Assembly: GCA_024679645.1 (NCBI GenBank)
Contig: JAIBCZ010000004.1
Location: forward strand, 1 to 32,899
Length of the DNA stretch: 32,899 bases
DNA from: Amphritea sp.
GTDB lineage: Bacteria; Pseudomonadota; Gammaproteobacteria; Pseudomonadales; Balneatricaceae
Direction of reading: 5' to 3'
Shown: positions 4,063 to 28,652 of the stretch, piece after piece
Layout of the letters: the number at the start of each line of letters is the position of its first letter
Position numbering within the stretch: position 1 is the stretch's first letter
Notes under the pieces: generated by a model
Told to the model about the DNA's origin: nothing
What the model saw: the letters and a program-made list of their open reading frames with translations, nothing else
Database searches by the model: none
Position numbers and translations under genes: made by a program

Positions 4063-4200
4063 ATCGTCTATTCTCGATTAGAATGCTGTTTTCGTTGCTG
4101 GCACTGAAACGAGTGTCGGCGGGTTTACGTTTTATTCTAACAGTCCTCGACCGCTTCCTCTATGCGTCCGGTCGGGTTGTCGAACAGGATTCCTAAGTAC

Positions 4201-4971
4201 ATGAGCTCAACAATTTCAGATCAGTTGCAAAACCTGGGCGTTACCACACACCGGCCGAGTAACCGTAATGTCGATCAGATGCGTGAGGTACGTATCACCC
4301 GTAATTTCACTAAGCACGCTGAAGGCTCTGTACTGGTCGAGTTTGGTGATACTAAAGTGATCTGTACTGCCTCCGTGGAACGGGGAGTGCCTCGCTTTTT
4401 ACGTGGCTCGGGTAGCGGCTGGGTGACAGCGGAATACGGGATGTTACCTCGCGCTACCGGTAGTCGTAACGGTCGGGAAGCCTCCCGGGGTAAGCAGGGT
4501 GGTCGTACGGTCGAGATTCAGCGTTTGATTGGTCGCTCGCTGCGCGCCTGTCTGGATCTTAAAAAGCTGGGTGAGAACACCATTACTATCGATTGTGATG
4601 TGATACAAGCCGACGGTGGAACCCGTACAGCATCAATTTCTGGCGCCTATGTAGCGCTGAGAGATGCCATTAGTTTTCTGAAAAAAGATAAGCATGGCGC
4701 TATGAAGGGTGATCCGATTAAATTTGGTCTGGCCGCTGTCTCGGTGGGTGTTTATAAAGGCGAGGCGGTGTTGGATCTGGATTATGCAGAGGATTCTGAC
4801 GCGGAAACCGATATGAACGTTATCATGACCGATAAAGGTGGCTTTATCGAAGTACAAGGTACGGCAGAAGGCGAACCATACTCAGAAGATGAACTGAATG
4901 CGATGCTGGCATTGGCTAAAAAAGGTATTGTGGAAATATCTGAGCTGCAGCGGCAGGTGCTTGCAGGCTGA
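4201..4971 (+). CDS. rph: Ribonuclease PH
   Basis: [43 protein letters not shown]...[13 protein letters not shown]; the ATG at 4201 is a likelier start than 4162. Confidence 0.94.
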
Positions 4972-4988
4972 TATGCGTGTCATGTAAT

Positions 4989-5017
4989 AAAAAAGGGAGC
5001 TGATGCTCCCTTTTTTT
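4989..5017. terminator. Bidirectional intrinsic terminator between convergent rph and crc-like genes
   Basis: AAAAAAGGGAGCTGATGCTCCCTTTTTTT: 6-bp GC stem flanked by A and T runs. Confidence 0.9.
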
Positions 5018-5038
5018 GTGTTTGTGGTCGGCTGTATT

Positions 5039-5806
5039 TTACAGGTCGTAGTCGACAATGACCGGGGCATGAGCAGAGAAACACTCATCCCGGTAGATAG
5101 ATGCGGCTTTAACCGTTTTACGAAGGTTGGCGGTAGTGACCTGGTAATCCAGACGCGCTCCTTCGTTCAGGTCGCGGGCTTTGTTGTAATCGGGCCACCA
5201 GGTATATTGTTGATCAGCATGGTTGACCTGGCGGAACGCATCGACATATCCCATCTCACCGAAGAGTTCTTCCATCCATTCGCGTTCCTGGGGGAGAAAT
5301 CCTGATACTTTCTGGTTCACATACCAGTTGCTCAGGTCCTGAGATTTGTGGGCGGTCTGTAACGGCCCACAAAAGATGAACTCACGACGTTTACGCAGGG
5401 TTTTGGTGAAGTGGCCCTTGAGCAGTCGTAAATATTCTTCTTTGGCGGCCTGCGCTTCTTCGCTCTTCAGGCCAGAAGGGACACTGAATGCTGCGACGCT
5501 GACGTTATCAAAGTCAGCCTGAATAAAGCGGCCATTAAAGTCACATTGCTCAAATCCAAGGCCGGTCATAATAGCTTTAGGCATTATCCGGGTATAGATT
5601 GCCACACCACTGTAGCCATCTTCAAATGCATCAAAGAAGTACGCGTCATAGCCTTCGGGATGATAGCGTTTATCATCTAACTGATACTCTTTTGCTCGCA
5701 GATCCTGCAGACACACAACATCTGCATCTTGTTTAACCATCCACTGGAAAAACCCATTATCTGCTGCCTGTTCAATACCCTGAGTATTGAAAGTTATGAC
5801 GCGCAT
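5039..5806 (-). CDS. crc: Exonuclease III/EEP-family protein, Crc-like
   Basis: 255 aa MRVITFNTQGIEQAADNGFFQWMVKQDADVVCLQDLRA...AHAPVIVDYDL; resembles pseudomonad Crc and lies beside pyrE/rph as crc does. Confidence 0.8.
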   Translation of the reverse strand: MRVITFNTQGIEQAADNGFFQWMVKQDADVVCLQDLRAKEYQLDDKRYHPEGYDAYFFDAFEDGYSGVAIYTRIMPKAIMTGLGFEQCDFNGRFIQADFDNVSVAAFSVPSGLKSEEAQAAKEEYLRLLKGHFTKTLRKRREFIFCGPLQTAHKSQDLSNWYVNQKVSGFLPQEREWMEELFGEMGYVDAFRQVNHADQQYTWWPDYNKARDLNEGARLDYQVTTANLRKTVKAASIYRDECFSAHAPVIVDYDL

Positions 5807-6002
5807 AGCTATAAACCCGTGAGAAGCGTAGTTCGATACGAAAGCCGCATTGTACTGGGTGTTTAAGCAAATTTGAATCTAAAGCGCTGACAATTAATCT
5901 CGCAGGGGGTAATTCAGAGCTTAAGTCTTGTTCCTTCTAGAGGGGCAGGACGAAACCCTGTATCATACGCGCACTTTTTATATAGCTTTGCGGAGAGCCC
6001 AG

Positions 6003-6644
6003 ATGCAGGATTATCAGAGAGAGTTTATCGAGTTCGCGATTGAGAAAGAGGTCTTGCGATTCGGCGAGTTCACACTGAAGTCTGGCCGGACCAGTCCTTA
6101 CTTTTTTAATGCTGGCCTCTTCAATACAGGTGAGGCTCTGGCCCGCCTAGGAAAGTGCTATGCGGCGGCGATTCAGCAATCGGGCATCGAGTACGATGTG
6201 ATGTTGGGCCCTGCGTATAAGGGCATACCGCTGGCTGCTGCGACTTGTGTCGCGCTGGCTACTGAGTTTGGCCAGGATGTGCCTTATGTCTTTAACCGTA
6301 AAGAAGCTAAAACTCACGGTGAAGGTGGCAATCTGGTTGGCGCACCGCTCGAAGGCCGGGTGCTGATTATTGATGATGTAATCACGGCAGGTACTGCGAT
6401 CCGTGAAGTGATGGATATTATTGAGCAGGCCGGCGCAACGCCAGCAGGCACTGTTATCGCTTTAAACCGCCAGGAAAAGGGCAAAGGCGAACTGTCGGCG
6501 ATTCAGGAAGTTGAGCGCGATTATGCGATGCCTGTCGCGAGCATTGTTTCCCTGAATGATCTGCTCACTTATCTGAGTGAGAAGGGGAGTATGGATGCTC
6601 AAATTGAAGCAATTTCAGCCTATCGTGCCAAATTCGGTATCTGA
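6003..6644 (+). CDS. pyrE: Orotate phosphoribosyltransferase
   Basis: [40 protein letters not shown]...[16 protein letters not shown] (PRPP-binding motif). ATG at 6003 preferred over the ORF-track start at 5928. Confidence 0.95.
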
Positions 6645-8964: not shown

Positions 8965-10713
8965 TCAGGAAAGGTCAGCGACCTCACGATCGATTATTTC
9001 CTTAACCTCTTCAATTTCTTCTGATTCATCTTCAGCAACGAAGCTTTCGCTATCTTTACGCAGTGATTTCACCAGGCCGAACATCATGGCGATGATGACT
9101 ACCGTAAAGGGTAGTGCACCGGCGATTGACGCGGCTTGTAGCGCTTTCAGTGCCTGACTGCCACCCATCAACAGGATCATCAGAGTAACAGCACCCAGAA
9201 CAGAACCCCAGATGATGCGTTGCTGGATAGGAGGACGACGACCAAAGGATAGTAAGCGGCCCAGTACCAGAGTACCTGAGTCAGCTGCCGTAACGAAGAA
9301 GACAACAACAACAACCAGTGCACAAATCTTAGCAACAGTCGCTGCTACGCCAGGCGTGAGTACCTCAAAAGCGGTAAACAGCGTGCCTGCGTAATCCCAG
9401 TTGTTGACCGAGGTATTGTAGATAGACATATCTGCGCCGTAAACGGACTCATAGATACCGGCAGAACCGATTATGCTGAACCAGATAAGCGAGACAATAG
9501 TAGGGATGAATACAACACCCATAACGAATTCACGGATAGTACGGCCACGTGAGATACGCGCAATGAACATACCTACGAAAGCAGACCAAGCAATCCACCA
9601 ACCCCAGTAGAAGATAGTCCAGCCACCTTGCCAGGTCTGTTCTTCAGAGCTGCGTGCAGTCCAGAGTGTCATAGAGAAAACTTCTGACGTGTAATCACCC
9701 AACGTTGTAAGGGTGCTGGCAATCAGGTAATTACCGCTAGAGGCAAACAGGAAGTAGGAGATAATGGCAATACAGATATAGCTGTTGAACTGCGACAGCA
9801 TGTTTATGCCTTTAGCCACACCACTGGTTGCAGACAAGGTTGCAATCAACGTGATGAAGACAATAGACATAACCGTAACGGTGGTAGATTTCTCATCGAG
9901 AATATTAAGAGAGATAAGACCAGCGCTGATCTGTTCAACACCCAGACCCAGAGTCGTCGCGATACCAAAGATGGTTCCGAATACCGCCAGGATGTCTACG
10001 GCGTTACCAATCGGGCCGTAGATCCGGTTACCGATAAGAGGATAAAGCGCTGAACGGATTGATAAAGGCAGGCCTTTACGGAAAGAGAAGTAAGCCAGTG
10101 ATAAACCTACGATGGCATACATAGCCCAAGCGACAGCACCCCAGTGGAAAACGGTAAGTGTCAGGCCGCCAACAGCAGCTTCAGCTACCAGATCGTTAGG
10201 TACTGGAAAACCTTTGTCTCCTGGCTGTAAGCCCGCTGCCAGAGCCGCCTGCTTCGCCTCAAAGAAGCTGGCAACCGCTGCTTTTACTTCAGCACTCATG
10301 AAAGGGTTTCCACCACTCCAGCCACTAGCGAAATGGATCATTGGCTCCGACATCGAGAAGAACAGCATACCTGCTCCGGTACCACAACCGAATAGCATGG
10401 AAAACCAGGCAAAGTTAGAAAATTCAGGCCGTTCGTCATCGCGGCCTAAACGTATCCGGCCTACTTTAGATACCATCAGCGTTGCACAGACGAGGAATGC
10501 CATAAGCATGACCAGGATGTAGTACCAACCGAGGGTTTCTTCGATCCAGCTTTTCAAACCGAGGAATTGTTGACTGGCAACTTCGCCCAGTAACACGGTA
10601 TAGAGGATAAACACTAGTACCATGACAATGGCAGTAATACCAAGTGTTGAGTTGAGTCCTTTCAGGACTCCCCTTTGCGCGATTAGCGCATCTATCTGTT
10701 TTTCTGCGAGCAT
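8965..10713 (-). CDS. dddT: BCCT-family betaine/DMSP transporter
   Basis: 582 aa, 12-TM-like; FGCGTGAGMLFFSMSEPMIHFASG and WTIFYWGWWIAWSAFVGMFIARISRGRTIREF are BCCT signatures; ddd-cluster context gives the DddT call. Confidence 0.85.
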   Translation of the reverse strand: MLAEKQIDALIAQRGVLKGLNSTLGITAIVMVLVFILYTVLLGEVASQQFLGLKSWIEETLGWYYILVMLMAFLVCATLMVSKVGRIRLGRDDERPEFSNFAWFSMLFGCGTGAGMLFFSMSEPMIHFASGWSGGNPFMSAEVKAAVASFFEAKQAALAAGLQPGDKGFPVPNDLVAEAAVGGLTLTVFHWGAVAWAMYAIVGLSLAYFSFRKGLPLSIRSALYPLIGNRIYGPIGNAVDILAVFGTIFGIATTLGLGVEQISAGLISLNILDEKSTTVTVMSIVFITLIATLSATSGVAKGINMLSQFNSYICIAIISYFLFASSGNYLIASTLTTLGDYTSEVFSMTLWTARSSEEQTWQGGWTIFYWGWWIAWSAFVGMFIARISRGRTIREFVMGVVFIPTIVSLIWFSIIGSAGIYESVYGADMSIYNTSVNNWDYAGTLFTAFEVLTPGVAATVAKICALVVVVVFFVTAADSGTLVLGRLLSFGRRPPIQQRIIWGSVLGAVTLMILLMGGSQALKALQAASIAGALPFTVVIIAMMFGLVKSLRKDSESFVAEDESEEIEEVKEIIDREVADLS

Positions 10714-11352: not shown

Positions 11353-12489
11353 TCATGGTGCTGCTGTTTTCTCGTTAGTTACTGAAGCGATGTTGCGCTG
11401 TGTCAGTTGGTCGGCAACTGACCTTACTTGATCTGAAACTGTCTGCTTGTTTAGACCGTAACAGCTCAGGGGAGGGAAGCGGAGACTGACTACAAAGTGT
11501 TTCAGTTCTGCTGCTAACATTTCTGTGGATTTCTCCGGTTCCCTTTGATTAGTAATGGTCAGCGCTTTTGCGCAATTGACAAATCGCTTTGGATTGACGT
11601 GGGCAGCGTATTCGATGCCCTGAGTCAGTAGTTCAGGAAAGATCGTATCCCGGGGTAAGGCTAATTCATCACACAGCGTTCTGTGAATTTCCTCCAGTGG
11701 TCCGGTTGTGTTGCCAGATGCTGTCGATCCCGGCAGCATTGATGCCAGTTGCAATGACTGGCTGACATCAGAATTATCAGGCTCTGGTATCAGGAGAGGC
11801 AGATTAGTATTTAGCAACATGAGAGCGGAATGATGTTGTTGATCGCGGAACGGTGATGGCTGCCCAAAAGCTATGTAATCTATTACTTTTAGTAAGGTTC
11901 TGGCAGCACTCTTTATCAGCTGCAGTTGTGGGGTCTGGCTGATAAGGTCTGTATCCTGAATGATTGCGACGGGAACTGATAAATGATTTTCTGAAGCAGT
12001 CATTGGGGTTAATCCTGTCGCTTTAGGGAGCAACCCCAGAGTAGTATCGTAGCTAAAGGTTGTCGGGATTGCGATGAGTGGAATCTGGATTCCGGTAATA
12101 CTGAAAGACCGGGGATACCCCTGAGCTCTGTTGTTACTGCAATAAGTGCTGATTGACTTAGCCAAATCGATCACAGATCCGCTGCCCAGCGCAATAATAA
12201 CATCGAAAGTATCAGGCATCAGACTGTCGCTACCCGAGAAAAAGCGTTTTACGCCTTTGTCGATGTCGCTCTGTTGAGGTTCAGCAGGGATATCATCAAA
12301 CAGTCTGTGCTTGATTCTGAAGATATCCAGTTGCCGGGATAGGCTAAGCGAATTCATTTTTTCTGACCCGCTGCAGCCGGAGAGAATCATCGGGGTACGA
12401 TACCCCATTAACGATAGGATTCTTGGGACTTCCTGAAGTACGCCTGAGTCATTCAGGATAATGCGGGGAAAACAGATACGTTCAGACAT
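11353..12489 (-). CDS. Divergent iron-containing alcohol dehydrogenase-like protein, probable pseudoenzyme
   Basis: 378 aa; retains GSGSVIDLAKSI-type nucleotide loop and SPFRDQQHHSALMLLNTNL aligning with SPYSDSQALSAMRLIGPNL of the dddB product, but catalytic metal-ligand motifs are replaced (see findings). Confidence 0.75.
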   Translation of the reverse strand: MSERICFPRIILNDSGVLQEVPRILSLMGYRTPMILSGCSGSEKMNSLSLSRQLDIFRIKHRLFDDIPAEPQQSDIDKGVKRFFSGSDSLMPDTFDVIIALGSGSVIDLAKSISTYCSNNRAQGYPRSFSITGIQIPLIAIPTTFSYDTTLGLLPKATGLTPMTASENHLSVPVAIIQDTDLISQTPQLQLIKSAARTLLKVIDYIAFGQPSPFRDQQHHSALMLLNTNLPLLIPEPDNSDVSQSLQLASMLPGSTASGNTTGPLEEIHRTLCDELALPRDTIFPELLTQGIEYAAHVNPKRFVNCAKALTITNQREPEKSTEMLAAELKHFVVSLRFPPLSCYGLNKQTVSDQVRSVADQLTQRNIASVTNEKTAAP

Positions 12490-12543: not shown

Positions 12544-15057
12544 TTAGCTAGGTAGGAACTCTCTTCCCCAGTTCAGACTCGCGATACCGCGTTCAATCAT
12601 CGATTCAATTTCGCCGGCACTATAGCCGACACCACTCAGAATCTCGCGGGTTGAATGGCCAAACCGTTCAGTTGATGCGACCGCTTTGATTGAGGCTTCT
12701 GACGGCCGAATTGAATAGTGATCGATCTGAGTGAAGCAGTGGCCACTGGGATGATCCGGGTAGATCGAGAAGGCATAGCTGCCTGAATCAATGCCTGGAG
12801 TACCATCGGCGATACGACTGTTCTGATCACGTAGTGTTTCAATTGAGTTAGGGGTTGCCACGGCTATATCGGCTTGATGTAAAACTGTGGTCCAGTACTC
12901 AGATGAGGCTAGCTTGAATGCTTGTTGCAGGTAGTTATACCTATCGCTGGCTTGTCTTATATCTGCCAGGCCTTCGATTGATGTAAGGCGATCCATTTCG
13001 GATAGGTCAGAATCCATGAAAATCCAGCCATCCGATGTTTCATAGAAATGCGACAACGCGTGATTACCTAATGATTCACGGCCGGAGGCTTCATTGAATG
13101 GCGGTCTTCCTTCGAAATCAAAGACAAAAGGAATCTGGGCCATATTCGTAACCGCTGAGAGTGAGGTCCTGACCCGGCTAGCCGTTCCGGTTCTGAGCTT
13201 GTGATAGGCAGCAAGTGCTACCCCCATACCGGCCGCAAAACCGCAGTTTACATCCAGTGTCCCTACATGAGCGTGTTCTTCGGGCGTATCTTTACCGCCA
13301 AAGCGCGTCATGATACCGCTATTGGCCTGAATGATATCGTCATAACCAAGGTAGTCAGTTTTAGGCCCGCGACGTGGACCTCCGAAACAGTCTAAACGGC
13401 AGAACAATACACCAGGATTGATCGTTTGCAGGCTGTCATGGTCAAGGCCTAACGGTTTCATTTGACGATCGGGGGCATTGATCAGTACCAGATCCACCGA
13501 ACGTATCAGACGATTGAGTGCTTCACGGCCTTCATTGGTATTGATATCCAGCAGCGCTTTCTTTTTTCCCATGTCAGTCTGAAAACTGTAAAGGGTGCCT
13601 ATCAGTGGATCATATAGCGGTGTGACCGGATCCAGTTTGATTACTTCAGCACCAAAACGCCCCAGAAATGCTGCGGAATGAGGGCCCGCTATAACGTTGG
13701 TCAGGTCTAGAACTTTGAATCCGTCCAGCCAGCCTTTACCAGAAATAGGGCGAATTTCATCGCCTGTCGGGCGGTCGCTTGTGCTACGTTCAGCGACTTC
13801 CTGCAATTCAGCCAGTGCTTCATCGAAGCTGACAGCTTTTCTTGGTCGTGGCGTAAGCAGAGCATCGGAATTTTGTTCGAACCATACCAACGGTCCAGGC
13901 TGTTTCATATCGCCGTATTCAGGATCTTTTACTTCTACGATTAGGCCCGCAGCGTTGGTATGTTCATCATTAACCCACTCCTCTGTGCTGCGGTGAGGTG
14001 CGCCCGGAATGCCTGTTTCGCCAAAGATTTTTCCCCACTCGTCAGAACTCTTTTCCAGGAACGCCTTTTTCATTTTGGCGGCGATTCTGTCAGCCCATTT
14101 CTTAGGGAGTGGGTAGACACCAATGGAGGTTTCACCGTCCCACTCAGCGATGGGCAGGTGCAGATTTTTCACATCAGGAAACCCTTCCGCCATCAATTCG
14201 TCATAGACACCTAGCACCTGTAGTGCGCGTTTGGCATGGTTGCGGTGCGAAGGACATACGCAATAAAATTTTCGGCCATCGGCACAGTCATAAGTACGAA
14301 AGAAAGGATCCAGGTATTCCTGTAGTGCTTCATAGCTAAGATCCATTTTGATGCCATTATTTTTGCGATACTCGATCTCGTGCTCACGCATAGTTTTGTA
14401 GCGTTCCGGAATGTCATCAATGACAAAGGAGTTATAGGACAAACCTTCCATTAATGCGGCCGCTACAGGTACTTCGACTTTATCGCCGCGGCCGGTTTTC
14501 TCCCGTTCCAGCAGGGCCATGACCATGGAGCTGGCGGCCAGAGATACAGCGTAGGACGAACCCAAAGGTACTGGAGAAAAACTCGGTTCTTTGCCCATTA
14601 ATATCCGGTTGAAGCCCATATCAGTAAATGCGCCAGAGGTTGCAGCAACCACTGCTTCAGTGGCCTTCCACTCCCGACGCAATTGGTCATTGCTGGCAAA
14701 ACCAGGCACAGAAAGCGTGATCAGTTCCGGGCGCTGTTGACGCAGTTGATCAAAATCGACCCCTAGTCGCTGCATGACTCCAGGTCGAAAACCTTCAATA
14801 ACAATATCAGCCTCTTCAATGAGCCGCAGGGCTTGACTGAGGCCTGACTCATTTTTCAAATCGAGTCTCAGGCAGCTCTTATTACGGTTCAGTACAGCAT
14901 TGGCGGGATGATCCCATTGCGGCCCCTGAGGCGGGTCGATGTGTACCACAGTAGCACCAAGGTCCGCCAGCGTCATGGCGACGGCTGGTGCGGCTATTTG
15001 CTGTCCAAAGTCTACGACCCGGACGCCTTCAAGAGGTAGTTGATTGTTATTATTCAT
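12544..15057 (-). CDS. dddD: DMSP CoA-transferase/lyase (tandem CaiB/BaiF class III CoA-transferase domains)
   Basis: 837 aa with two CaiB-like domains (LEGVRVVDFGQQIAAPAVAMTLADLGATVVHIDPP and LDGFKVLDLTNVIAGPHSAAFLGRFGAEVIKLDPV); DddD-like size and architecture; neighbours dddT, dddB, dddC. Confidence 0.92.
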   Translation of the reverse strand: MNNNNQLPLEGVRVVDFGQQIAAPAVAMTLADLGATVVHIDPPQGPQWDHPANAVLNRNKSCLRLDLKNESGLSQALRLIEEADIVIEGFRPGVMQRLGVDFDQLRQQRPELITLSVPGFASNDQLRREWKATEAVVAATSGAFTDMGFNRILMGKEPSFSPVPLGSSYAVSLAASSMVMALLEREKTGRGDKVEVPVAAALMEGLSYNSFVIDDIPERYKTMREHEIEYRKNNGIKMDLSYEALQEYLDPFFRTYDCADGRKFYCVCPSHRNHAKRALQVLGVYDELMAEGFPDVKNLHLPIAEWDGETSIGVYPLPKKWADRIAAKMKKAFLEKSSDEWGKIFGETGIPGAPHRSTEEWVNDEHTNAAGLIVEVKDPEYGDMKQPGPLVWFEQNSDALLTPRPRKAVSFDEALAELQEVAERSTSDRPTGDEIRPISGKGWLDGFKVLDLTNVIAGPHSAAFLGRFGAEVIKLDPVTPLYDPLIGTLYSFQTDMGKKKALLDINTNEGREALNRLIRSVDLVLINAPDRQMKPLGLDHDSLQTINPGVLFCRLDCFGGPRRGPKTDYLGYDDIIQANSGIMTRFGGKDTPEEHAHVGTLDVNCGFAAGMGVALAAYHKLRTGTASRVRTSLSAVTNMAQIPFVFDFEGRPPFNEASGRESLGNHALSHFYETSDGWIFMDSDLSEMDRLTSIEGLADIRQASDRYNYLQQAFKLASSEYWTTVLHQADIAVATPNSIETLRDQNSRIADGTPGIDSGSYAFSIYPDHPSGHCFTQIDHYSIRPSEASIKAVASTERFGHSTREILSGVGYSAGEIESMIERGIASLNWGREFLPS

Positions 15058-15488: not shown

Positions 15489-15579
15489 GATAGCTCCTTC
15501 TGGTTTGGGTCCTAGGTGATTCGATCTAAAGTCGGAAGAGTTCCCTGAAATAATAAGTACAAAAATGAGTGGAGTTGTT

Positions 15580-16737
15580 ATGACGATCCAAGTAATTCTA
15601 CCCCGCATTATGCAGGTTGGTGAGGATGCAAGCCTTGAAATTCCGAATATTCTTGCCAGTCTGGGCTGCTCCCGGCCACTGATTATTACAGACAAGATGA
15701 TGGTTGAGTTGGGCTATGCCGGCAGTATACAGACTTGTCTTGCGGAAGATTCCATCACTGCCGATGTGTTTGATGATACCGTGCCGGAGCCGACCGTTAG
15801 CTCGATTCAGGCGGGCGTGGATGCCGTACGTGACGGTAGCTACGACAGTATTATCGCACTGGGTGGCGGAAGCCCGATCGACAGCGCTAAGGCGATCGGT
15901 ATTCTGGGTAAGTTCGGCGGTGATATGCAGGACTACAAATTCCCTCGGATCGTAAACGAAGAAGGTCTTCCTATTATTGCTGTACCGACTACCGCCGGTA
16001 CCGGTTCAGAGGTAACCCGTTTTACCATCATCACTGATGAAACTACCGATGAGAAGATGCTTTGTGTCGGTATTGGCTTTATGCCGGTTGCAGCTTTGGT
16101 TGATTTTAAACTGACTCTGAGTCTGCCAGCGAGAATCACTGCTGATACTGGTATTGATGCACTGACCCATGCAATGGAAGCCTATGTAAGTAAGAAGGCT
16201 AGCCCATATAGTGATAGCCAGGCATTGTCAGCTATGCGCTTAATCGGCCCAAATCTACGCCGCGTATTCCATGATGGATCTGATAAAGAGGCTCGTGAAG
16301 CGATGATGCTGGGCTCTACCTTGGCTGGTATCGCTTTTTCAAATGCTTCTGTTGCCCTGGTACACGGAATGAGCCGTCCGATCGGTGCCGCTTTCCATGT
16401 ACCTCATGGCTTGTCGAATGCGATGTTGTTACCGGCAGTGACCGAATTTTCCATACCTGAAGCATCAGAACGTTATGCTGACTGTGCCCGGGCGATGGGA
16501 ATTGCAACGGTGCAGGATAGCGATGACATTGCCAACGGTAAATTGATGACTGAACTGCGTGCACTGAATGACGAACTGAAGGTGCCTACACCCGAACAGT
16601 TTGGTATCGAGCGCGAGACATTCTTTGAGATGATGCCAACCATGGCTGAACAGGCTTTGGCGTCGGGCTCTCCGAATAATAATCCGCGGGTGCCTACTCC
16701 CGAACAGATCATCGAGATCTATAAACAGATCTGGTAA
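15580..16737 (+). CDS. dddB: Iron-containing alcohol dehydrogenase, DMSP pathway (3-hydroxypropionate oxidation)
   Basis: MTIQVILPRIMQVGEDASL...GGGSPIDSAKAI...PTTAGTGSEVTRF...DALTHAMEAYVS...LVHGMSRPIGAAFHVPHG; canonical D/H/H/H ligands. ATG at 15580 has GGAG upstream; track start is 15565. Confidence 0.88.
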   Translation: MTIQVILPRIMQVGEDASLEIPNILASLGCSRPLIITDKMMVELGYAGSIQTCLAEDSITADVFDDTVPEPTVSSIQAGVDAVRDGSYDSIIALGGGSPIDSAKAIGILGKFGGDMQDYKFPRIVNEEGLPIIAVPTTAGTGSEVTRFTIITDETTDEKMLCVGIGFMPVAALVDFKLTLSLPARITADTGIDALTHAMEAYVSKKASPYSDSQALSAMRLIGPNLRRVFHDGSDKEAREAMMLGSTLAGIAFSNASVALVHGMSRPIGAAFHVPHGLSNAMLLPAVTEFSIPEASERYADCARAMGIATVQDSDDIANGKLMTELRALNDELKVPTPEQFGIERETFFEMMPTMAEQALASGSPNNNPRVPTPEQIIEIYKQIW

Positions 16738-16875: not shown

Positions 16876-18366
16876 ATGAATACAGTTGGACATCTGATCA
16901 ACGGTCAAATGGTTACTGAAGCGGATCGCCTTCAGGATGTTTATAACCCAGCCACAGGCGCAGCTTCTAAGCAGGTAGCGCTGGCATCTAAAGAAACTGT
17001 TGAAGAAGCAATTGCAGCGGCACAGGCAGCTTTCCCTGCGTGGCGTAATACCCCGGCAATTAAGCGTGCCCGGGTCATGTTTCGCTTTAAAGAGTTGCTG
17101 GAACAGAATGCTGATCGCATCTGCGAAATGATTGGCGAAGAACACGGTAAGATCAGCCATGATGCGGGCGGTGAACTGCAGCGTGGTATTGAGAACGTTG
17201 AATATGCATGCGGTATTCCTGAGCTGCTGAAAGGCGAGCACAGCAAGAACGTTGGCCCTAGTATCGATTCCTGGAGTGAATTCCAGCCATTGGGTGTGGT
17301 AGCAGGTATTACCCCATTCAACTTCCCGGCGATGGTACCTATGTGGATGTTCCCTCTGGCGATCGCTTGCGGTAACACCTTTATTCTTAAGCCTTCAGAG
17401 CGTGATCCAAGCTCTACTATGTATATTGCACAGCTGCTTCAAGAAGCGGGCTTGCCAGACGGTGTAATGAACGTAGTTAATGGTGATAAAGTTGCAGTAG
17501 ATACCTTGCTGACTGATGAGCGCATCAAAGCGGTAAGCTTTGTTGGTTCAACGCCTATTGCTGAGTACATCTACAGTACAGCAAATGCAAATGGTAAGCG
17601 TTGCCAGGCGCTGGGTGGTGCGAAAAACCACGCTATCGTGATGCCAGATGCGGATATGGATAACGCTGTTAACCAACTGGTTGGTGCTGCGTTTGGTTCA
17701 TCTGGTGAGCGTTGCATGGCGCTATCTGTTGCTGTTGCCGTCGGTGATGAAGCTGCGGATGCCTTGGTTGCTAAAATGACTGAAGCGATGAAGACGCTGA
17801 AAGTTGGCGTTTATAGCGAAAGCAGCAATGACTTTGGCCCGGTAATCACTCGTCAACATCAGCAAAAAGTTGTCGGCTACATCAATAGCGCAGAAACTGA
17901 TGGCGCACGCATCGTAGTTGATGGCCGTGCACCGGAAGTTGAAGGTTATGCCGAAGGTTTCTTCGTTGGTGCAACACTGATTGATGGTGTTACCACTGAG
18001 ATGCAGAGCTACCAGGAAGAGATCTTTGGTCCAGTACTTCAGGTTGTTCGTGTGAACAGCATGGAAGAAGCGATGAAGATGATCGACGACCACGAATACG
18101 GTAACGGTACTTGTATCTTTACCCGTGACGGTGAAGCGGCTCGCTACTTCTCTGACAATATTCAGGTGGGCATGGTTGGTATCAACGTACCACTGCCTGT
18201 TCCTGTTGCTTACCACAGTTTCGGTGGCTGGAAGCGTTCACTGTTTGGTGATCTGCATGCCTACGGTCCTGATGGCGTACGTTTTTACACTAAGCGTAAG
18301 ACTATTACTCAGCGTTGGCCTTCAAGTGGTGTACGTGAAGGCGTATCCTTCGCGTTCCCAAGCTAA
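16876..18366 (+). CDS. dddC: Methylmalonate-semialdehyde dehydrogenase-like aldehyde dehydrogenase (malonate semialdehyde to acetyl-CoA)
   Basis: 496 aa MNTVGHLINGQMV...VGSTPIAEYIYSTANANGKRCQALGGAKNHAIVMPDADMD...GSSGERCMALSVAV; MmsA-type ALDH directly downstream of dddB. Confidence 0.9.
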   Translation: MNTVGHLINGQMVTEADRLQDVYNPATGAASKQVALASKETVEEAIAAAQAAFPAWRNTPAIKRARVMFRFKELLEQNADRICEMIGEEHGKISHDAGGELQRGIENVEYACGIPELLKGEHSKNVGPSIDSWSEFQPLGVVAGITPFNFPAMVPMWMFPLAIACGNTFILKPSERDPSSTMYIAQLLQEAGLPDGVMNVVNGDKVAVDTLLTDERIKAVSFVGSTPIAEYIYSTANANGKRCQALGGAKNHAIVMPDADMDNAVNQLVGAAFGSSGERCMALSVAVAVGDEAADALVAKMTEAMKTLKVGVYSESSNDFGPVITRQHQQKVVGYINSAETDGARIVVDGRAPEVEGYAEGFFVGATLIDGVTTEMQSYQEEIFGPVLQVVRVNSMEEAMKMIDDHEYGNGTCIFTRDGEAARYFSDNIQVGMVGINVPLPVPVAYHSFGGWKRSLFGDLHAYGPDGVRFYTKRKTITQRWPSSGVREGVSFAFPS

Positions 18367-18874: not shown

Positions 18875-19789
18875 ATGAAAAAAAGACTCCCACCGCTCAA
18901 CTGGTTGCGCTCTTTTGAAGTGTCTGCACGTCATTTGAATTTTACCCAGGCTGCGTCAGAGCTTAATTTGACTCAAGCGGCAATCAGCCAGCAAATCAAA
19001 GGGCTTGAGTCCCAGCTAGGGGTGCTACTTTTCAAGCGCCTTCCCAGAGGGCTTGAGTTGACAAAAGCCGGCCGGGCTTATGTCCCTGTCGTACATGAAT
19101 CGATTGAACGCCTTGCTGAAGTAACTGATGAGCTGTTTGGAAAAGGTCAGACCCGCCCGCTCACCATTAAAACTAATTTGATCTTTTTTGTCACATGGCT
19201 CTCATCCCGTTTAGGTCAATTTCGCACTTTGTATCCCGATGTTAATTTGCGCTTTGCCAGTAATATTTGGGTCGAGGAGATGGATAAAGAGTCTGACATG
19301 GAAGTTCGCCATGGCCTGGGGGAATGGCCAGATGTTAAATGTGATCGGCTGACCTGGGATGAACTTATTCCTGTATGTAGTCCAACGCTGGCAAACGGCG
19401 AAATGCCGCCTAATTCTCCTGAAGATCTATCCAGATGTACGTTGCTGCATGTGGTTGGGTATAACGAAGGCTGGGGGTACTGGCTGAAGCAAACGGGATT
19501 TCAAGCGTTAGATTCTTCTCAGGGAATTCAGTTTGATACTCTGATCTCTGCTTTGAATATGGCTAAAAGGGGGCAAGGTATTGCACTGGGCCGGACCTCA
19601 GTGATTGAAGAGATGATTGAAACAGGACAGTTGATAGCCCCCTTTGAACAACGGATGGCAACATCAGAAGCTTTCCACCTGATAAGTCCGGTTAACCAAT
19701 TTGAACATCCTCATGCGGAGATATTCCGTTCCTGGCTTATTAAAGAAGCTGGGATAGCCCGCGAGCAAGTGATTTCAAGTAATATTTGA
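18875..19789 (+). CDS. dddR: LysR-family transcriptional regulator
   Basis: 304 aa LPPLNWLRSFEVSARHLNFTQAASELNLTQAAISQQIKGLESQLGVLLFKRLPRGLELTKAG, GcvA-like LysR HTH; adjacent to the ddd operon, so DddR by context. Confidence 0.8.
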   Translation: MKKRLPPLNWLRSFEVSARHLNFTQAASELNLTQAAISQQIKGLESQLGVLLFKRLPRGLELTKAGRAYVPVVHESIERLAEVTDELFGKGQTRPLTIKTNLIFFVTWLSSRLGQFRTLYPDVNLRFASNIWVEEMDKESDMEVRHGLGEWPDVKCDRLTWDELIPVCSPTLANGEMPPNSPEDLSRCTLLHVVGYNEGWGYWLKQTGFQALDSSQGIQFDTLISALNMAKRGQGIALGRTSVIEEMIETGQLIAPFEQRMATSEAFHLISPVNQFEHPHAEIFRSWLIKEAGIAREQVISSNI

Positions 19790-20313: not shown

Positions 20314-21537
20314 TTATCCCTGATATGGCGAGTAAGACAGCGCTTGCTCAACAAAATCAGAAATTTGATTACCCGTATGTGCGATACGACTCGGGCTTAA
20401 ATGGCTGTAACGAGCACTCATAGCTGGAGACGAATGATTCAGCGCGAGCATAATATCCGTAATACTTCCCCCATTATTGATTATTATAGAGGCGTGCTGG
20501 TGACGTAATTGATGGATGCAATATTCGCCTGTAATACCCGCTCTACGCAAAATTCGTTTAAAGGCTTTAGAAGGTGACGTTATCGGGCCGCCATAGTCTT
20601 TGTAGTTTGGATATCCTCCTGGAAACAGAAAAGGGTTGCCTTGTATGCGCCGTAAATTCCTGAGTAATTCAACAGTTAATCTGTTGAGATACACGGTATA
20701 CCCCCCAGCCTTGGATGTAGGCACCACCCAGGTTGGGTGGGCAAGCCCTATGCTGATGTGTTCCCACTTAGCCTGAGCTGCTTCAGAGCGCCTGGCTCCT
20801 GTTAGCAAAAGGTACTTAAAGTACTGACCTGCAAAGTAGTTACAGTCTTCGTCGCAGGATTTAAACAGCGCACGAAGCTGATTATCCGTTAGTAGTCGGG
20901 TACGTTGATTATCCTCTCTGAGTAACCGAACTGATCTAGATTTAGCAGGACTACAATCGATTAATCCCCATTGTTCCGCTGTATTAAAGATGTGTCGACA
21001 GAGCGCTAATACTCGATTGTTGCTTGCAGGGGCTAATTTGGCGGTTAGACTGCTCTGCAACGCCAGCAGGTTCTGTGTGGTGACCTCATCGAGTAGCTGC
21101 CCGCCTAATGCTTTATGAACATGGTGTTTGTAGCGACCTAAATCACTGCGTTCGCTTCGCTTCTTTGCGGCAACAAGCGGTGCATACTGTTGGTAAAAGA
21201 ACTCATCCAAAGTCAGTGCCCGCTGGCTCTTAAGCTTCTCTTGCTTTGGATCGATACCCTTAGCCACCATTCCTTTGTACTGGTTAGCTATTTCACGTGC
21301 CTCAGCAACGGACAATGGCCCGAAAGGACCAATGGCGATAGAGCGCTTTCTTTTTCTGAAGGAAAATCGCAGCAAGAATTTTTTCGAGCCTTTGTTCTTA
21401 CCAACTAACAGCTTTAATCCTACAACGTCAGTATCGCTGATTTCTCTTTCCGTAGATCGGGAATCTGCATCATGAGGAGGTAATTTTTCAATTAGCCTGT
21501 TGGTCAAACGCATTTTATTCGAAGAAGGCTTAGCCAT
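20314..21537 (-). CDS. int: Tyrosine recombinase/integrase (DUF4102-type N-terminus, P4-like)
   Basis: LTNRLIEKLPP...LLTGARRSEA...IHQLRHQHASIIINNGGSITDIMLALNHSSPAMSARYSHLS carries R, HxxR and Y residues. Start 21537 has AAGGAG upstream; track start is 21588. Confidence 0.93.
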   Translation of the reverse strand: MAKPSSNKMRLTNRLIEKLPPHDADSRSTEREISDTDVVGLKLLVGKNKGSKKFLLRFSFRKRKRSIAIGPFGPLSVAEAREIANQYKGMVAKGIDPKQEKLKSQRALTLDEFFYQQYAPLVAAKKRSERSDLGRYKHHVHKALGGQLLDEVTTQNLLALQSSLTAKLAPASNNRVLALCRHIFNTAEQWGLIDCSPAKSRSVRLLREDNQRTRLLTDNQLRALFKSCDEDCNYFAGQYFKYLLLTGARRSEAAQAKWEHISIGLAHPTWVVPTSKAGGYTVYLNRLTVELLRNLRRIQGNPFLFPGGYPNYKDYGGPITSPSKAFKRILRRAGITGEYCIHQLRHQHASIIINNGGSITDIMLALNHSSPAMSARYSHLSPSRIAHTGNQISDFVEQALSYSPYQG

Positions 21538-21767
21538 AGGTTTCTCCTTAGTGTTCCTGGGAGTTGTAATCCTCGGTCCAACACACACTTTCCCCCGCAG
21601 CAGACACAGCGAAGCCTTGGCAATGCTGCCAATAGGATTCTAGGCGCTGAAAGCAAAAGAGGAATTACCTGCCGCCCGGTCTATTACCGGTCATTCAGGT
21701 TGGAATTACAGAGGGTTTAGCCTCTTGAGTGTGTATTGGGCGAGAAAATGGAATTGAGATTGATGGG

Positions 21768-22199
21768 TTAATCGTCGACAGTCACAGTGACATCGAAAAC
21801 GCCCATTCGGTTGTAGGTCAGAAAGTTGTCTTGCCACAAAGCATAGAATTCAGCGCAGTTAGCTAAGTCCTGACGAGGTAGATCAAGCGCATAGAAATCA
21901 CCGGATTCAAAATCGAAATCCAGCTCTTTCGCAAGCTCACTGCACCAACCCTGACCGACATAACAAAAGTCCGTAATGTAACTTAGAACACCCTTATCCT
22001 CTGAAATTTCAATACGGATCTCTACAGGGTGATAGCCTCCTGCCTCAGCGGAGTAATCAGGGTCACGGAAGTTAATCGTAACGGCGTTAATGCCCCGGTC
22101 TTTTCCCCGGGCCCGTAGGTGTGTTTCTGTAGCATCAACAAGCAGTTGGGTAAGTTCCGGAGATACCGGTACTGAGTAGTTCCTTGGTAACTGGAACAT
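21768..22199 (-). CDS. DUF2787-like protein of mobile elements
   Basis: 143 aa with FRDPDYSAEAGGYHPVEIRIEISEDKGVLSYITDFCYVG, recognised from memory as DUF2787-like. Confidence 0.65.
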   Translation of the reverse strand: MFQLPRNYSVPVSPELTQLLVDATETHLRARGKDRGINAVTINFRDPDYSAEAGGYHPVEIRIEISEDKGVLSYITDFCYVGQGWCSELAKELDFDFESGDFYALDLPRQDLANCAEFYALWQDNFLTYNRMGVFDVTVTVDD

Positions 22200-22211
22200 A
22201 GTCTTTCCTCC

Positions 22212-22790
22212 TTATATATCGTTTTCAGGTTTGGTATCGGCAGATATTGGTGAGTCAGAATCAGTAAAGAGGCTTTCAGTTTTAGCCTGTGCAGACTTAG
22301 CTTTGGTTGAAGCATTAGGCTTTGGCTTGCTGGATTTGGGCGGAGTCTTCATTGGTTTGAGTTTGCCAACTTCAGCTATCCAATCATCGACCGGATGCCC
22401 CTTTAAATGTAGGAATGCTTTGTCAGGCACAGCAGCAAGAACTCCTTCGGCCCTGAATACCGCAGCACAAAATCCTGCATTGTTACTTGAGCCTCCACTG
22501 AAGAGGTTACGCAGTGCTGACGACTTAAAGGGCTTATCAGCTTCTAAGGTATCGAGCAGTGACTTGATAGATTCCAGCTCAACCCACTCTTTACTGAAGT
22601 AGCCCCCAGAGTCACTTTCGAGCATCCGTAATGCCAAAGCATTTGATTCAGGATGCTTACCGATCTGATAGGTCAGAGAACCTGGGGTTTTAGGTGAGAG
22701 TTTGGGAGCGGTAGCTTGCTTCAGAAGTATGAATTCAATAGCTGTAACCTCCTGAGTGGAGGTTACAGCGTCAGTTTTGTTAGTGATCAT
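22212..22790 (-). CDS. Hypothetical protein with basic/low-complexity C-terminus
   Basis: 192 aa ORF in a tight minus-strand array; lysine/proline/serine-rich tail. Start uncertain because of a strong hairpin in the 5' coding region. Confidence 0.6.
   Translation of the reverse strand: MITNKTDAVTSTQEVTAIEFILLKQATAPKLSPKTPGSLTYQIGKHPESNALALRMLESDSGGYFSKEWVELESIKSLLDTLEADKPFKSSALRNLFSGGSSNNAGFCAAVFRAEGVLAAVPDKAFLHLKGHPVDDWIAEVGKLKPMKTPPKSSKPKPNASTKAKSAQAKTESLFTDSDSPISADTKPENDI
22741..22769. repeat. Perfect 12-bp inverted repeat inside a 5' coding region
   Basis: GCTGTAACCTCC-TGAGT-GGAGGTTACAGC. Confidence 0.95.
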
Positions 22791-22795
22791 GTTGT

Positions 22796-23143
22796 TTAAT
22801 CCTTCGATGATTTAATCAATTGAGTAGGACAGAGGAGATAGCAACCACCACCGTCATCAGTTGTAACGGCTAGGCTGAGTTGGTGGTCCTGCGGAAGGTT
22901 AATAATCCACTCGGGGTATTCAAGCGCAAAGGCCAATACAGGATCGGACTTAGATAAGTTATCTAGGTCATCATCTGGCTCGATTAGTAGTAATCGTGTA
23001 TTGGTCTGTTGCCAAAATACGGTAACCGCTACGGCTGATTCGAATGGTTGTTCAATCTCTAGGATCAGGGCGTTAATGAGATCATCATCCAGTGGTAGCT
23101 GAATGACCTGAGAAGGGCTGTTTATAGTAATCACAGTCATCAC
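22796..23143 (-). CDS. Hypothetical acidic protein
   Basis: 115 aa ORF, gene-tight with neighbours; no recognised domain. Confidence 0.55.
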   Translation of the reverse strand: MMTVITINSPSQVIQLPLDDDLINALILEIEQPFESAVAVTVFWQQTNTRLLLIEPDDDLDNLSKSDPVLAFALEYPEWIINLPQDHQLSLAVTTDDGGGCYLLCPTQLIKSSKD

Positions 23144-23150
23144 CCCCTCA

Positions 23151-23336
23151 TTAGTTATCAGAAGGACCGAAAATTAGACCTATAGCACCCCCGACCACAC
23201 CTCCGACGGCAGGGCCAACGACAGGAATAATGACACCGACGCGGGCTCCGGCGATTGCTCCGGCTACCGCCCCCGAGATACTAGGTTCTACCGTGATGGA
23301 ATTATCGATCATTGAGCATTTAGCTGAGGAAAACAT
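23151..23336 (-). CDS. Small glycine-zipper membrane-active-like peptide
   Basis: 61 aa MFSSAKCSMIDNSITVEPSISGAVAGAIAGARVGVIIPVVGPAVGGVVGGAIGLIFGPSDN; strong SD (AAGGAG, 5 nt before ATG) supports start at 23336. Confidence 0.65.
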   Translation of the reverse strand: MFSSAKCSMIDNSITVEPSISGAVAGAIAGARVGVIIPVVGPAVGGVVGGAIGLIFGPSDN

Positions 23337-23498
23337 GTGAACTCCTTGCAATGGATATCAAACAGAATGCAGCGAGCGCTGCTATGCAAGGTTGTTATAT
23401 ATAGATGTAAGAGAATTTATTGCGGAAAAGTCGTTGCCCCTAGCGGGCTCTCATCCCGTTTTTAAGGTGTGGGAAAATTTCAATGTCGTAGCACCCTA

Positions 23499-24038
23499 CT
23501 AACAGCTCTTATACAGGTTTCTTCTTCTCGCTCTCAGAAAGCTTACGGGCCAGAGTTTATGCTTTAGCGACCTCCGCTTAGTCACTTCTACAAACCTCTC
23601 TGCAAGCAAATCTATTCGACTCCTCTTAAAAGCGGAGATGGAAACTTCGGCGGGTACTCGCAAACCTTCGCCGTTGCTAGCCATGCCCCACAACACCACA
23701 AACACCACTTTATTTCTGTAAATGAGCATACAAAAAATAATATCCAGCAAGATGAAAAAAAGGAAAAACCTCCAATAATTTTGAATTCCATAGGTTCCCT
23801 TCTCTTTTTTAATAGGTATTTGCCAAATTTCTAGATCGGGGAGTAGGCCTACTTGCCTGCCGAACATTCTTACAATAATACGAGGGCCTCTTCCTTTCTG
23901 GATCTTATCACTACCAGCTATAAATTTATAAGGACTTTTAGCTGCATTATCGGTTTTACACGACCAATAACAACTAATAACATCTCGTCCTGTAAATAGC
24001 TGAAGCGACATTTCGCATCGGCAATCGCTCTTTAACAA
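23499..24038 (-). CDS. Hypothetical protein with one predicted hydrophobic segment
   Basis: FFLFFILLDIIFCMLIY hydrophobic stretch; divergent from integrase 2. Internal Met (MSLQLFTG) is a possible start. Confidence 0.4.
   Translation of the reverse strand: MLKSDCRCEMSLQLFTGRDVISCYWSCKTDNAAKSPYKFIAGSDKIQKGRGPRIIVRMFGRQVGLLPDLEIWQIPIKKEKGTYGIQNYWRFFLFFILLDIIFCMLIYRNKVVFVVLWGMASNGEGLRVPAEVSISAFKRSRIDLLAERFVEVTKRRSLKHKLWPVSFLRARRRNLYKSC
24026..24038 (+). promoter_or_regulatory. boxA-like antitermination motif
   Basis: CGCTCTTTAACAA, close to the rrn boxA TGCTCTTTAACAA, about 40 nt upstream of the integrase 2 start. Confidence 0.55.
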
Positions 24039-24064
24039 TTTGGGAAATAGGGTCAGCGGGATTC

Positions 24065-25312
24065 ATGAGGTATTTCATGGAAACTGCTAACAGCAATATC
24101 TGTTCACCCTCTCAACCGCTGCTTAAAGGTCAAACCATACGGTTAACCAAGCGTGCGATACAGTTGATGCTTCAATCACCTTATCCGTCAGGAAAGGTTC
24201 AAATTGAAATATCTGACTCTGATTGTAGAGGTTTAAAAGTACTGATATCTCGAACCGGAATAGCAACGTATTACTCTCGCTTTCATTTGAAACACAAACG
24301 TTTTTCTAAAAGGCTCGGAGAGTTCCCCGTAATGAATGTTGAAAGCGCCAGAAAAAACGCTTCAGCATATCGATTATCGGTGCAAAAAGGTGAGATTTTT
24401 GTATCAAGTTCTGATGCAAAAATTACTTTTGTAGGCGCTATGAATCGTTATGGCGAACACTCTAAAGCAACAAAAAAAAGCTCAAAAGAGGATCTTAGCA
24501 AAATAAAAAATCATCTGACTCCGTTCTTTAAGAAAATGAGGCTATCAGATGTTACTCCAGCAGATATAAAGAGTTACTTGAACTGGCTTAAAAAGAAGAA
24601 AGTCAAAAATAAGGAGCGCAAAGATTCAACAATAGATAGGCATATTTCATTGCTTATGGCTATGTGCAAGTTCTTCATATCTAAAGGATGGCTCGGTTCA
24701 TCGTTCATGGAATCAATTAAAACGAAGAACCCTGATAACAGCAAAGATCGTTACTTATCAACTCAAGAACTAGGTGGCTTTATGAGAGCTTGCCGTAGTT
24801 TTGAAGGGGATCCTTTTAGAGTTTTTGAGCTACTTGCGGCTACGGGAATGCGGATATCTGAAGGGTTGTCAGCCCGACTGGATAACTGGGACATAGAGCG
24901 TCAGGTGTTAATACTTGATGACTCTAAAACAGGCAAACGTGAGGTAGTGCTAAACCCCACAGCTACCAGAATACTTGAACTTCAATATGAGAAATATGGA
25001 GGTCGAGGTTTAGCATTTCGAGGGAGATTTGATGACCGTCCCATGAGTCGCCCCAATAGCGCTTGGAAAAAGATCATGATTATGGCGAATCTTAATGATG
25101 GAACTGTCACTCCTCATACGCTTAGGCATACATTCTGCTCTCACCTACTTATGGCGGGTGTTGATCAGTTTACTGTCAGTAAGTTAATGGGACTCAAATC
25201 AACATATTGCGTACAACGTCATTACGGCCACTTGAGCCAACAAATGCTCGCAAAAACATGTGCTGTAATCACCGATGTAATAAATAAATCACTTACGATA
25301 TTGGAGGAATAA
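24065..25312 (+). CDS. Tyrosine recombinase/integrase (second)
   Basis: LLAATGMRISEGLSARL...TVTPHTLRHTFCSHLLMAGVDQFTVSKLMGLKSTYCVQRHYGHLS: complete R/HxLR/Y catalytic set; alternative start 24077. Confidence 0.93.
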   Translation: MRYFMETANSNICSPSQPLLKGQTIRLTKRAIQLMLQSPYPSGKVQIEISDSDCRGLKVLISRTGIATYYSRFHLKHKRFSKRLGEFPVMNVESARKNASAYRLSVQKGEIFVSSSDAKITFVGAMNRYGEHSKATKKSSKEDLSKIKNHLTPFFKKMRLSDVTPADIKSYLNWLKKKKVKNKERKDSTIDRHISLLMAMCKFFISKGWLGSSFMESIKTKNPDNSKDRYLSTQELGGFMRACRSFEGDPFRVFELLAATGMRISEGLSARLDNWDIERQVLILDDSKTGKREVVLNPTATRILELQYEKYGGRGLAFRGRFDDRPMSRPNSAWKKIMIMANLNDGTVTPHTLRHTFCSHLLMAGVDQFTVSKLMGLKSTYCVQRHYGHLSQQMLAKTCAVITDVINKSLTILEE

Positions 25313-25317
25313 TGTAA

Positions 25318-25521
25318 ATGGAGAATATCCCCAGTGACTGGGAGCCCTTAGTTAGGAGTGAAGATGCTGCCAAGTATCTTAGTATTTCTAAAAGCGCGCT
25401 AGAGAAAGGGCGCGCAGCAGGAAACGAAGGGCTTCCCCCTTTCTGCAGAATAGGTAAATCAGCAGTTCGCTACCGACGTAGCGACCTAATTTCCTGGGTG
25501 GAAAGTAATCTAGTGAACTAG
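25318..25521 (+). CDS. AlpA/excisionase-like helix-turn-helix protein
   Basis: 67 aa PLVRSEDAAKYLSISKSALEKGRAAGNEGLPPFCRIGKSAVRYRRSDLISWVESN, MerR/AlpA-type HTH. Confidence 0.8.
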   Translation: MENIPSDWEPLVRSEDAAKYLSISKSALEKGRAAGNEGLPPFCRIGKSAVRYRRSDLISWVESNLVN

Positions 25522-25536
25522 AGTGTTTTGCCTTCA

Positions 25537-25735
25537 ACTGCCAAGGCTTCAATTGGCAGTAATAGCGATCCATCTCCGTCAGGTGGAACCAATCGCTCTC
25601 TAAAGGTTACGCGAACCTTACGACGGATAACTTAGCTGGGACGCCAGTTTAATTCTATTCAAAACGGCCCGGCCAGCCGTTTTGATATTTACTGCTCAGA
25701 TGAGCATCAAATCAACTACCTACCCCAAAGTAGGT
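25537..25735. other. Dense cluster of inverted repeats
   Basis: ACTGCCAA/TTGGCAGT (25537-25560), AGCGAT/ATCGCT (25564-25597), AAGGTT/AACCTT (25603-25619), CTGG/CCAG (25636-25647), AAAACGGC/GCCGTTTT (25661-25683), TGCTCA/TGAGCA (25693-25706), ACCTAC/GTAGGT (25718-25735). Confidence 0.85.
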
Positions 25736-25754
25736 CTAAATCAAGGCTACAAGG

Positions 25755-27500: not shown

Positions 27501-27593
27501 TAACACCACCTGCTGACCCTATCTCTTTCTTCAAATTCACGAGCCCGCATCAGGGCTCTTTCTTTTACACTTTTTCCTTATTGGAGATTCACT

Positions 27594-28130
27594 ATGAATA
27601 CTAATGGAACACCACACGCAGAAGACCTTACTGCTTACCCAATCAGCCGATATGAATGTTTTTGGAATGGAATCTACAATCCCTTTATGGAACAGGACCT
27701 ACATGGATTGATATATCAGGATGAAAATACACTTTTATATCATCGCCTACCATTTAACGTCATTTTAGGATTACACGATGGCTTTTATTTCTATGAACTT
27801 ACCGAACACTTACAAGACTCGGAATTAAAAAGTTCTATTCGCTTTGGTTCAAAAATTGAGTTGAATCGAAACGGCCACCCCAAAGCTCTTCCAGATAGCT
27901 TCTATCGAGTACGAGCCTACATGAACTCCCACTTTCCAGGTCATGGACCTGTTATTCAAGAATTTCTTGAGGGGCTCACTATGAATGGATTACTGGTTAA
28001 CGAAGATACTGATGATTTAGGGGAATTAGATGATGTTATAAGTAGTCTGAATAGACAAACCAATCGTGCAAGACTTGAAAGCGCTGCTATACCAGCCACT
28101 CATACTAAGGATCCGCTAAAAGCTATTTAA
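27594..28130 (+). CDS. Hypothetical protein
   Basis: 178 aa ORF with TTGGAG SD-like sequence before the ATG; no recognised domain. Confidence 0.6.
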   Translation: MNTNGTPHAEDLTAYPISRYECFWNGIYNPFMEQDLHGLIYQDENTLLYHRLPFNVILGLHDGFYFYELTEHLQDSELKSSIRFGSKIELNRNGHPKALPDSFYRVRAYMNSHFPGHGPVIQEFLEGLTMNGLLVNEDTDDLGELDDVISSLNRQTNRARLESAAIPATHTKDPLKAI

Positions 28131-28157
28131 CCGCCTTATTTAGCGAAAGATGCTTGC

Positions 28158-28580
28158 TTGCAGTCGACGGATCATGGAACAGTCCTATTAGATCAAGATG
28201 ATAACGAGGTTGGTATTTTATCAGATATTAGTATTAGAGCTTATATCGATAAGAATATCCCAATGCACAAAGACCAGGAATTCTGTGTTATCCATGCGAG
28301 TGTTCCTCAGCACGATGGAAGCGTAACCGAAATCGAGTTTAGGTCTCTGAACTGCCTACCTGAATATCTACCAAGTGCTCCGCTTATGGCCATAGAGTAT
28401 TTACAACAAATAGTGTCTGAACGGGCAGAGATCATTCCAAATCTTGTAATTGGTAGTATCGGTACTGTCCTTAACGGGCTTAAAAAAACTACGTATTTGG
28501 ATGAAGGTTTTTCGGCAGCCGAAGAATGTTACCTTAGAAGAACAGCGCGAAAGCTACGAAGCCTTAAAGCGTACTATTAA
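28158..28580 (+). CDS. Hypothetical protein (TTG start)
   Basis: 140 aa ORF followed by a strong terminator. Confidence 0.5.
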   Translation: MQSTDHGTVLLDQDDNEVGILSDISIRAYIDKNIPMHKDQEFCVIHASVPQHDGSVTEIEFRSLNCLPEYLPSAPLMAIEYLQQIVSERAEIIPNLVIGSIGTVLNGLKKTTYLDEGFSAAEECYLRRTARKLRSLKAYY

Positions 28581-28621
28581 CCTATAACGAATAGTTAATT
28601 TAGCTAGCTCAATCAAAAACA

Positions 28622-28652
28622 GGGTAGTCTTCTAAGGCTACCCTTTTTTTTA
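28622..28652 (+). terminator. Intrinsic terminator
   Basis: GGGTAGTCTTCTAAGGCTACCCTTTTTTTT. Confidence 0.9.

Follow-up and report, generated by a model that had tools for sequence, protein, structure and literature searches.

DMS, a climate-active gas, is set free when the marine sulfur compound DMSP is degraded. Iron-type alcohol dehydrogenases (Fe-ADHs) form dimers. FucO, AdhE, and methanol dehydrogenase of this family depend on a metal bound by a D/H/H/H set of ligands (PMC5125639). The superfamily also has active metal-free members, in which the ligand Asp is replaced by Asn or Arg (PMC5125639) and the substrate channel is positively charged (PMC5741723). Maleylacetate reductases (MAR, cd08177; GraC, PcpE) combine the Fe-ADH fold with an active site devoid of metal, a replaced Asp ligand—by Arg in some of them—the retained histidines, a working NADH site, and the signature LHHKLCHTLGG (PMC5741723). 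A further Fe-ADH homolog, the alcohol dehydrogenase-like regulatory protein ErcA (NF041833), is reported to have a regulatory role (cited in PMC12997753), proposed to lie in ethanol regulation. In ddd clusters, the superfamily is represented by DddB, the Fe-ADH type 3-hydroxypropionate (3-HP) dehydrogenase.

The window analyzed here, i.e., the whole stretch of 32,899 nucleotides from Amphritea sp., contains a ddd island with dddB and, directly behind dddD, a ligand-less Fe-ADH paralog, in the following called para (Table 1). As proposed in a preliminary description, para forms an intact frame of 378 residues; it runs on the minus strand (12489→11353) like dddD and starts 54 bp past the dddD stop codon, and the plus strand is riddled with stops over the same positions. 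The minus strand of the island bears dddD, para, and a BCCT transporter gene in this order; on the plus strand, dddB is followed by dddC and then by a LysR gene. The right half of the window (20314–31836) carries two tyrosine integrases, DUF2787, and DUF927 and looks like a mobile island; a protein pair with ABC-3C CTD10 domains within it may be a defense system.

Table 1. Features of the ddd island and of para (positions within the window)
Feature	Position	Strand	Description	Basis
para	11353..12489	-	378 aa	ORF call; PF00465/PF25137 above gathering cut-off; orthologs
dddD	12544..15057	-	Two-domain class III CoA-transferase DMSP lyase, 837 aa	Pfam; 80% identity to Amphritea DddD
dddB	15565..16737	+	Fe-ADH, D/H/H/H intact	Pfam, alignment; 90% identity to A. 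atlantica
dddC	16876..18366	+	CoA-acylating methylmalonate-semialdehyde dehydrogenase type	TIGR01722 above cut-off
LysR-type regulator	18875..19789	+	dddR-like	Pfam, locus comparison
BCCT transporter	8965..10713	-	3' of para	Pfam, locus comparison
R197 codon	11899..11901	-	Replaces DddB ligand Asp (Ala in A. atlantica)	Alignment
K201 codon	11887..11889	-	Replaces ligand His (Arg in A. atlantica)	Alignment
E266 codon	11692..11694	-	Replaces ligand His (Gln in A. atlantica)	Alignment
R280 codon	11650..11652	-	Replaces ligand His (retained in A. atlantica)	Alignment
GSGSVID	12166..12186	-	Pyrophosphate-binding loop, residues 102-108, kept (sisters GGGSTID)	Alignment
PTTFSYDTT	12040..12066	-	Degenerate PTTAGTGSE cofactor loop, residues 142-150	Alignment, AF2 model
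7-residue insert	12208..12228	-	Residues 88-94, common to A. atlantica paras, missing in DddB	Alignments
8-bp stem-loop	12510..12533	-	TGGCTGGC-N8-GCCAGCCA, no T tract	dddD-para spacer

Para is a member of the Fe-ADH superfamily. The window protein scores 60.9 bits against the Fe-ADH model PF00465 (cut-off 31.3) and 31.9 bits against ADH_Fe_C, PF25137 (cut-off 27), and the A. atlantica-type protein reaches 108 and 121 bits. Foldseek searches with AF2 models return the solved structures of FucO, the alcohol dehydrogenase domain of AdhE, and Bacillus methanol dehydrogenase as top fold matches, with TM values of 0.5 to 0.7 for the window protein (pLDDT 70, with low confidence at residues 146–171) and of about 0.8 for that of A. 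atlantica (pLDDT 77). Within the superfamily, the para clade branches among DddB-like enzymes, the A. atlantica paras being 44 to 47% and the window para 27% identical to DddB. From DddB, with which it shares superfamily and island, para differs by the missing metal ligands and PTTxGTGSE motif, by a 7-residue insert, by its position behind dddD, and by a 7- to 13-fold higher dN. The window para retains 52 of the 144 DddB-invariant residues, and its C-terminal tail is lost.

The preliminary description suggested that all four metal ligands are gone. An alignment of 68 Fe-ADHs—65 DddB-like enzymes, the window para, and two sister paras—bears this out: the D/H/H/H columns, kept in 65 of 65 DddB-like enzymes, are occupied by R197, K201, E266, and R280 in the window para, so that the residue numbers given earlier (R196/K200/E265/R279) were each one too low. 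In both sister paras, these columns read A/R/Q/H, i.e., three of the four ligands are lost and the last His is kept. The alignment reveals no ligands relocated elsewhere in para; the seven His of the window protein (61, 169, 219, 220, 269, 297, and 331) all lie outside the ligand columns, with H269 indeed 3 residues from E266. In the AF2 model of the window para, R197 and K201 are carried by helix 188–208 and E266 by helix 264–275, in agreement with the alignment register. The cofactor loop, PTTxGT(S/T)E in 65 of 65 DddB-like enzymes, is lost in all three paras: it reads PTTFSYDTT in the window, from residue 142 and as described before, and PTAI(S/G)GSE in the sisters. Of these motifs, only the GGGSxID loop is retained throughout, and the window version GSGSVID from residue 102 is the nucleotide loop that had been said to remain.

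The sister paras come from 117 genomes of the family, a search of which placed two genomes of the same genus clearly ahead of the rest (E about 1e-45): A. atlantica DSM 18887 (G001/L033/L125) and G003 (L032), both with para 52 bp behind dddD. The three paras form one clade inside the DddB-like set (SH-aLRT 99, to be read with caution given the very long branch of the window row) and have in common the 7-residue insert and 21 residues that are rare in DddB. The ddd island adjoins rph, xth, and pyrE in the window (4162–6644) as well as in A. atlantica (L033:3333-5804), and these common neighbors support the positional orthology of para; in G003, the island lies on a 305-kb second contig next to an amidoligase gene. 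The window BCCT is 88% identical to the BCCT behind dddD in two genomes (L106, L107) of another family of the same order, but only 44% to the A. atlantica BCCT, which is placed between dddB and dddD. This indicates an exchange of the island's transporter.

Of 18 Amphritea genomes, all three with a ddd cluster carry para and none of the 15 without one does; it was found in 0 of about 38 other dddD loci examined in the family and order. A class-wide search, a plasmid search, and a profile-led scan of genome contigs yielded no further member of the para clade. When genome contigs were scanned with the window protein, no match was obtained because this para is too diverged; the profile led by a sister sequence found A. 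atlantica. The other full-length loci from the profile-led scan (L126–L130, 42–46% identity) are not para and all bear D/H/H/H, and the matches in the plasmid collection (identity up to 46%) are ordinary Fe-ADHs only. A candidate for a fourth para, G074 C45 with 49% identity to a sister gene, turned out to be DddB-like: it is 71% identical to DddB, keeps its ligands, and adjoins a DddC-like gene. G074 carries a second DddB-DddC-like pair at a distance from its dddD cluster (L104:6419-9135). Four Amphritea genomes (G005, G006, G008, and G016; L083, L078, L079, and L081) encode a two-domain DddD-like protein with 45% identity to DddD, and in the two of these loci that were inspected—G006 and G008—neither dddB nor dddC was seen nearby. 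In a sample of three genomes, two of them close relatives, the para clade is thus small, so far restricted to Amphritea ddd clusters, and located directly behind dddD.

Between A. atlantica and G003, para shows an omega of 0.265 (dN 0.085, dS 0.32), and omega = 1 is rejected (2dlnL 56.5, p ~ 6e-14). The ligand-less para is under purifying selection, at least in this pair. For the linked genes, omega amounts to 0.056 (dddB), 0.11 (dddD), and 0.032 (dddC), so that constraint acts on the ligand-less form too, though not as strongly as on the genes around it. Toward the window, para diverges much further, with a dN of about 0.8 and a saturated dS; at this saturation, pairwise fits still reject omega = 1 (2dlnL 50 and 67), and the differences by codon position are 0.53/0.43/0.70. 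As no direct pairwise omega can be given at saturated dS, the linked genes were used as a dS yardstick, and their dS of 1.1 to 2.4 suggests an omega of roughly 0.3 to 0.7 for the window para. Its identity to the sisters is 30% versus 80 to 91% for dddD, dddB, and dddC; its dN is 13-fold that of dddB and about 5.5-fold that of dddD. Conservation is higher in the N-terminal nucleotide domain than in the metal domain (Fisher p 0.005–0.04). Constraint may be weaker on the window copy than on its sisters, and fast divergence, the lost C-terminal tail, and the lack of a clear Shine–Dalgarno sequence fit a loosening of function in this copy.

At the level of expression, both sister paras bear AGGAGG upstream of the start codon, whereas the window para has no clear Shine–Dalgarno sequence. 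The spacer holds a stem-loop at the same place in all three species, with unrelated sequences (z −2.35 in the window, −1.86 and −3.80 in the sisters). In A. atlantica and G003, ACTTTT follows the hairpin, as it does behind dddD in G074, a genome that lacks para; the hairpin thus probably represents an older 3' element of dddD. Many para-less dddD genes also have a hairpin downstream, and the hairpin was dropped as a para-specific feature. On the minus strand of the dddD–para spacer, site calling gave neither a terminator-like nor a promoter-like element. The simplest reading is that dddD and para are co-transcribed and that para expression is attenuated. Co-transcription as suggested in the preliminary description is hence plausible (same strand, 52–54 bp, no terminator call), but given the stem-loop in the spacer, both genes may be differentially expressed.

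Could para still be an enzyme? An alternative metal site (e.g., from E266, H269, H219/H220) is conceivable in so far as E266 and H269 lie on one model helix and H219/H220 on another. However, three ligand positions are filled by the basic residues R197, K201, and R280, and the A. atlantica orthologs do not share H219, H220, or H269, which makes a remaining metalloenzyme highly improbable. Chemistry with NAD(P)H but without metal, like in maleylacetate reductases, would give the basic residues a purpose: R197, K201, and R280 might bind an acid in anionic form, e.g., 3-HP, acrylate, or malonate semialdehyde. The active metal-free members of the superfamily with their positively charged channel offer a precedent, the window para has the Asp to Arg exchange plus two more basic residues, and maleylacetate reductase structures are among the para fold matches. 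Yet these enzymes keep the histidines and the LHHKLCHTLGG signature, where PLEEIHRTLCD is found in the window para and LLQSMSNTLQS in A. atlantica; neither the signature nor the catalytic His/Lys is present, none of the three paras has kept the PTTxGTGSE cofactor loop, and no maleylacetate reductase family model matched. We consider a metal-free enzyme quite unlikely.

Two further readings do without catalysis. Para might have become a regulatory sensor. In the former active-site cleft, it would bind a pathway metabolite (3-HP, DMSP, acyl-CoA) or NADH and thereby act on the LysR regulator or on a kinase, as proposed for ErcA. Indeed, ErcA is the top NCBIfam relative of para, and para lies within a regulated catabolic island containing a LysR gene. 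Its score of 70.5 bits, however, is far under the NF041833 cut-off of 550, and DddB itself reaches 311 bits—which reflects superfamily likeness only—and the island showed no gene for a sensor kinase; a sensor role appears unlikely. On the other side, para might be a redundant dddB-like duplicate behind dddD that lost catalysis first and is slowly decaying, with the window as a late stage before frame loss. The very fast divergence of the window lineage, the less constrained metal domain, and the lost Shine–Dalgarno sequence and C-terminal tail would be expected from such a process. Against it stand the frames, which are intact in three of three genomes although a neutral simulation to the window divergence predicts about 9 to 14 stops and left not one frame intact, and the sister omega of 0.265 at a stage already without three ligands; neither a broken frame in the three genomes nor an omega near 1 between the sisters marks these genes as pseudogenes, with dS saturated in the window comparisons. 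Para was also kept behind dddD though the BCCT gene was exchanged or moved, and slow decay seems a minor possibility.

The best explanation overall, to which we assign a probability of about 0.5, is a lineage-specific Fe-ADH pseudoenzyme that is kept with dddD and perhaps serves as a non-catalytic partner of DddB. Judging from residue loss and selection, para is probably unable to perform metal-dependent hydride transfer. The loss of metal site, cofactor loop, and catalytic-side residues next to an intact DddB in the same island argues against a second 3-HP dehydrogenase, and the conservation of the predicted fold, the N-terminal domain, and the dddD linkage argues for a retained role. The pseudoenzyme reading of the preliminary description has thereby gained support from dddD-adjacent orthologs in two other Amphritea genomes, from ligand loss shared with them, and from dN/dS well below 1 between these two; the window copy alone, which evolves very fast, is less convincing.

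Descent from DddB-like enzymes of a dimer-forming family makes a DddB partner the most economical guess, and DddB a likelier partner than DddD. Hereby, para would keep its ADP-binding half and the surface by which Fe-ADHs dimerize, assemble with DddB as a non-catalytic, prozyme-like partner, and tune 3-HP oxidation downstream of DddD. It would be co-transcribed with dddD and attenuated through the spacer stem-loop, and constraint on the partner role would be weaker in the window lineage. A role beside DddB is suggested by ancestry and predicted fold; the mechanism as a whole is the most likely one we can put forward, but tentative and at clearly less than even odds. Nucleotide or CoA binding, put forward in the preliminary description, is a candidate role; para has lost the K and the PTTxGTGSE residues that should contact NAD(P), so that nucleotide binding is doubtful, and the missing cofactor loop argues against NAD(P) binding of the normal kind. 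It appears improbable that para, as a dead Fe-ADH, is an obligate regulatory (prozyme-like) subunit which in Amphritea links the lyase reaction of DddD with the oxidation by DddB.

As far as searched, the para clade is a previously undescribed, Amphritea-specific group of ligand-less Fe-ADHs tied to dddD; the papers found leave para undescribed, PMC9327192 being covered apart from its gene-cluster figure. According to the 13C-labeling work in that study, DddD-bearing Amphritea dominate the use of DMSP carbon, and the genus is reported to lead its consumption in coastal seawater. A selected, apparently non-catalytic, dddD-linked protein in exactly this genus is an extra candidate component of the DMSP pathway. 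It also makes the path of a metalloenzyme family toward pseudoenzymes accessible to study, as one genus displays three stages: intact DddB, the sister paras minus three ligands, and the window para minus all four. If the coupling-subunit reading were true, DMS release would have a new control point in para, which would also be, to our knowledge, the first Fe-ADH subunit without a catalytic function.
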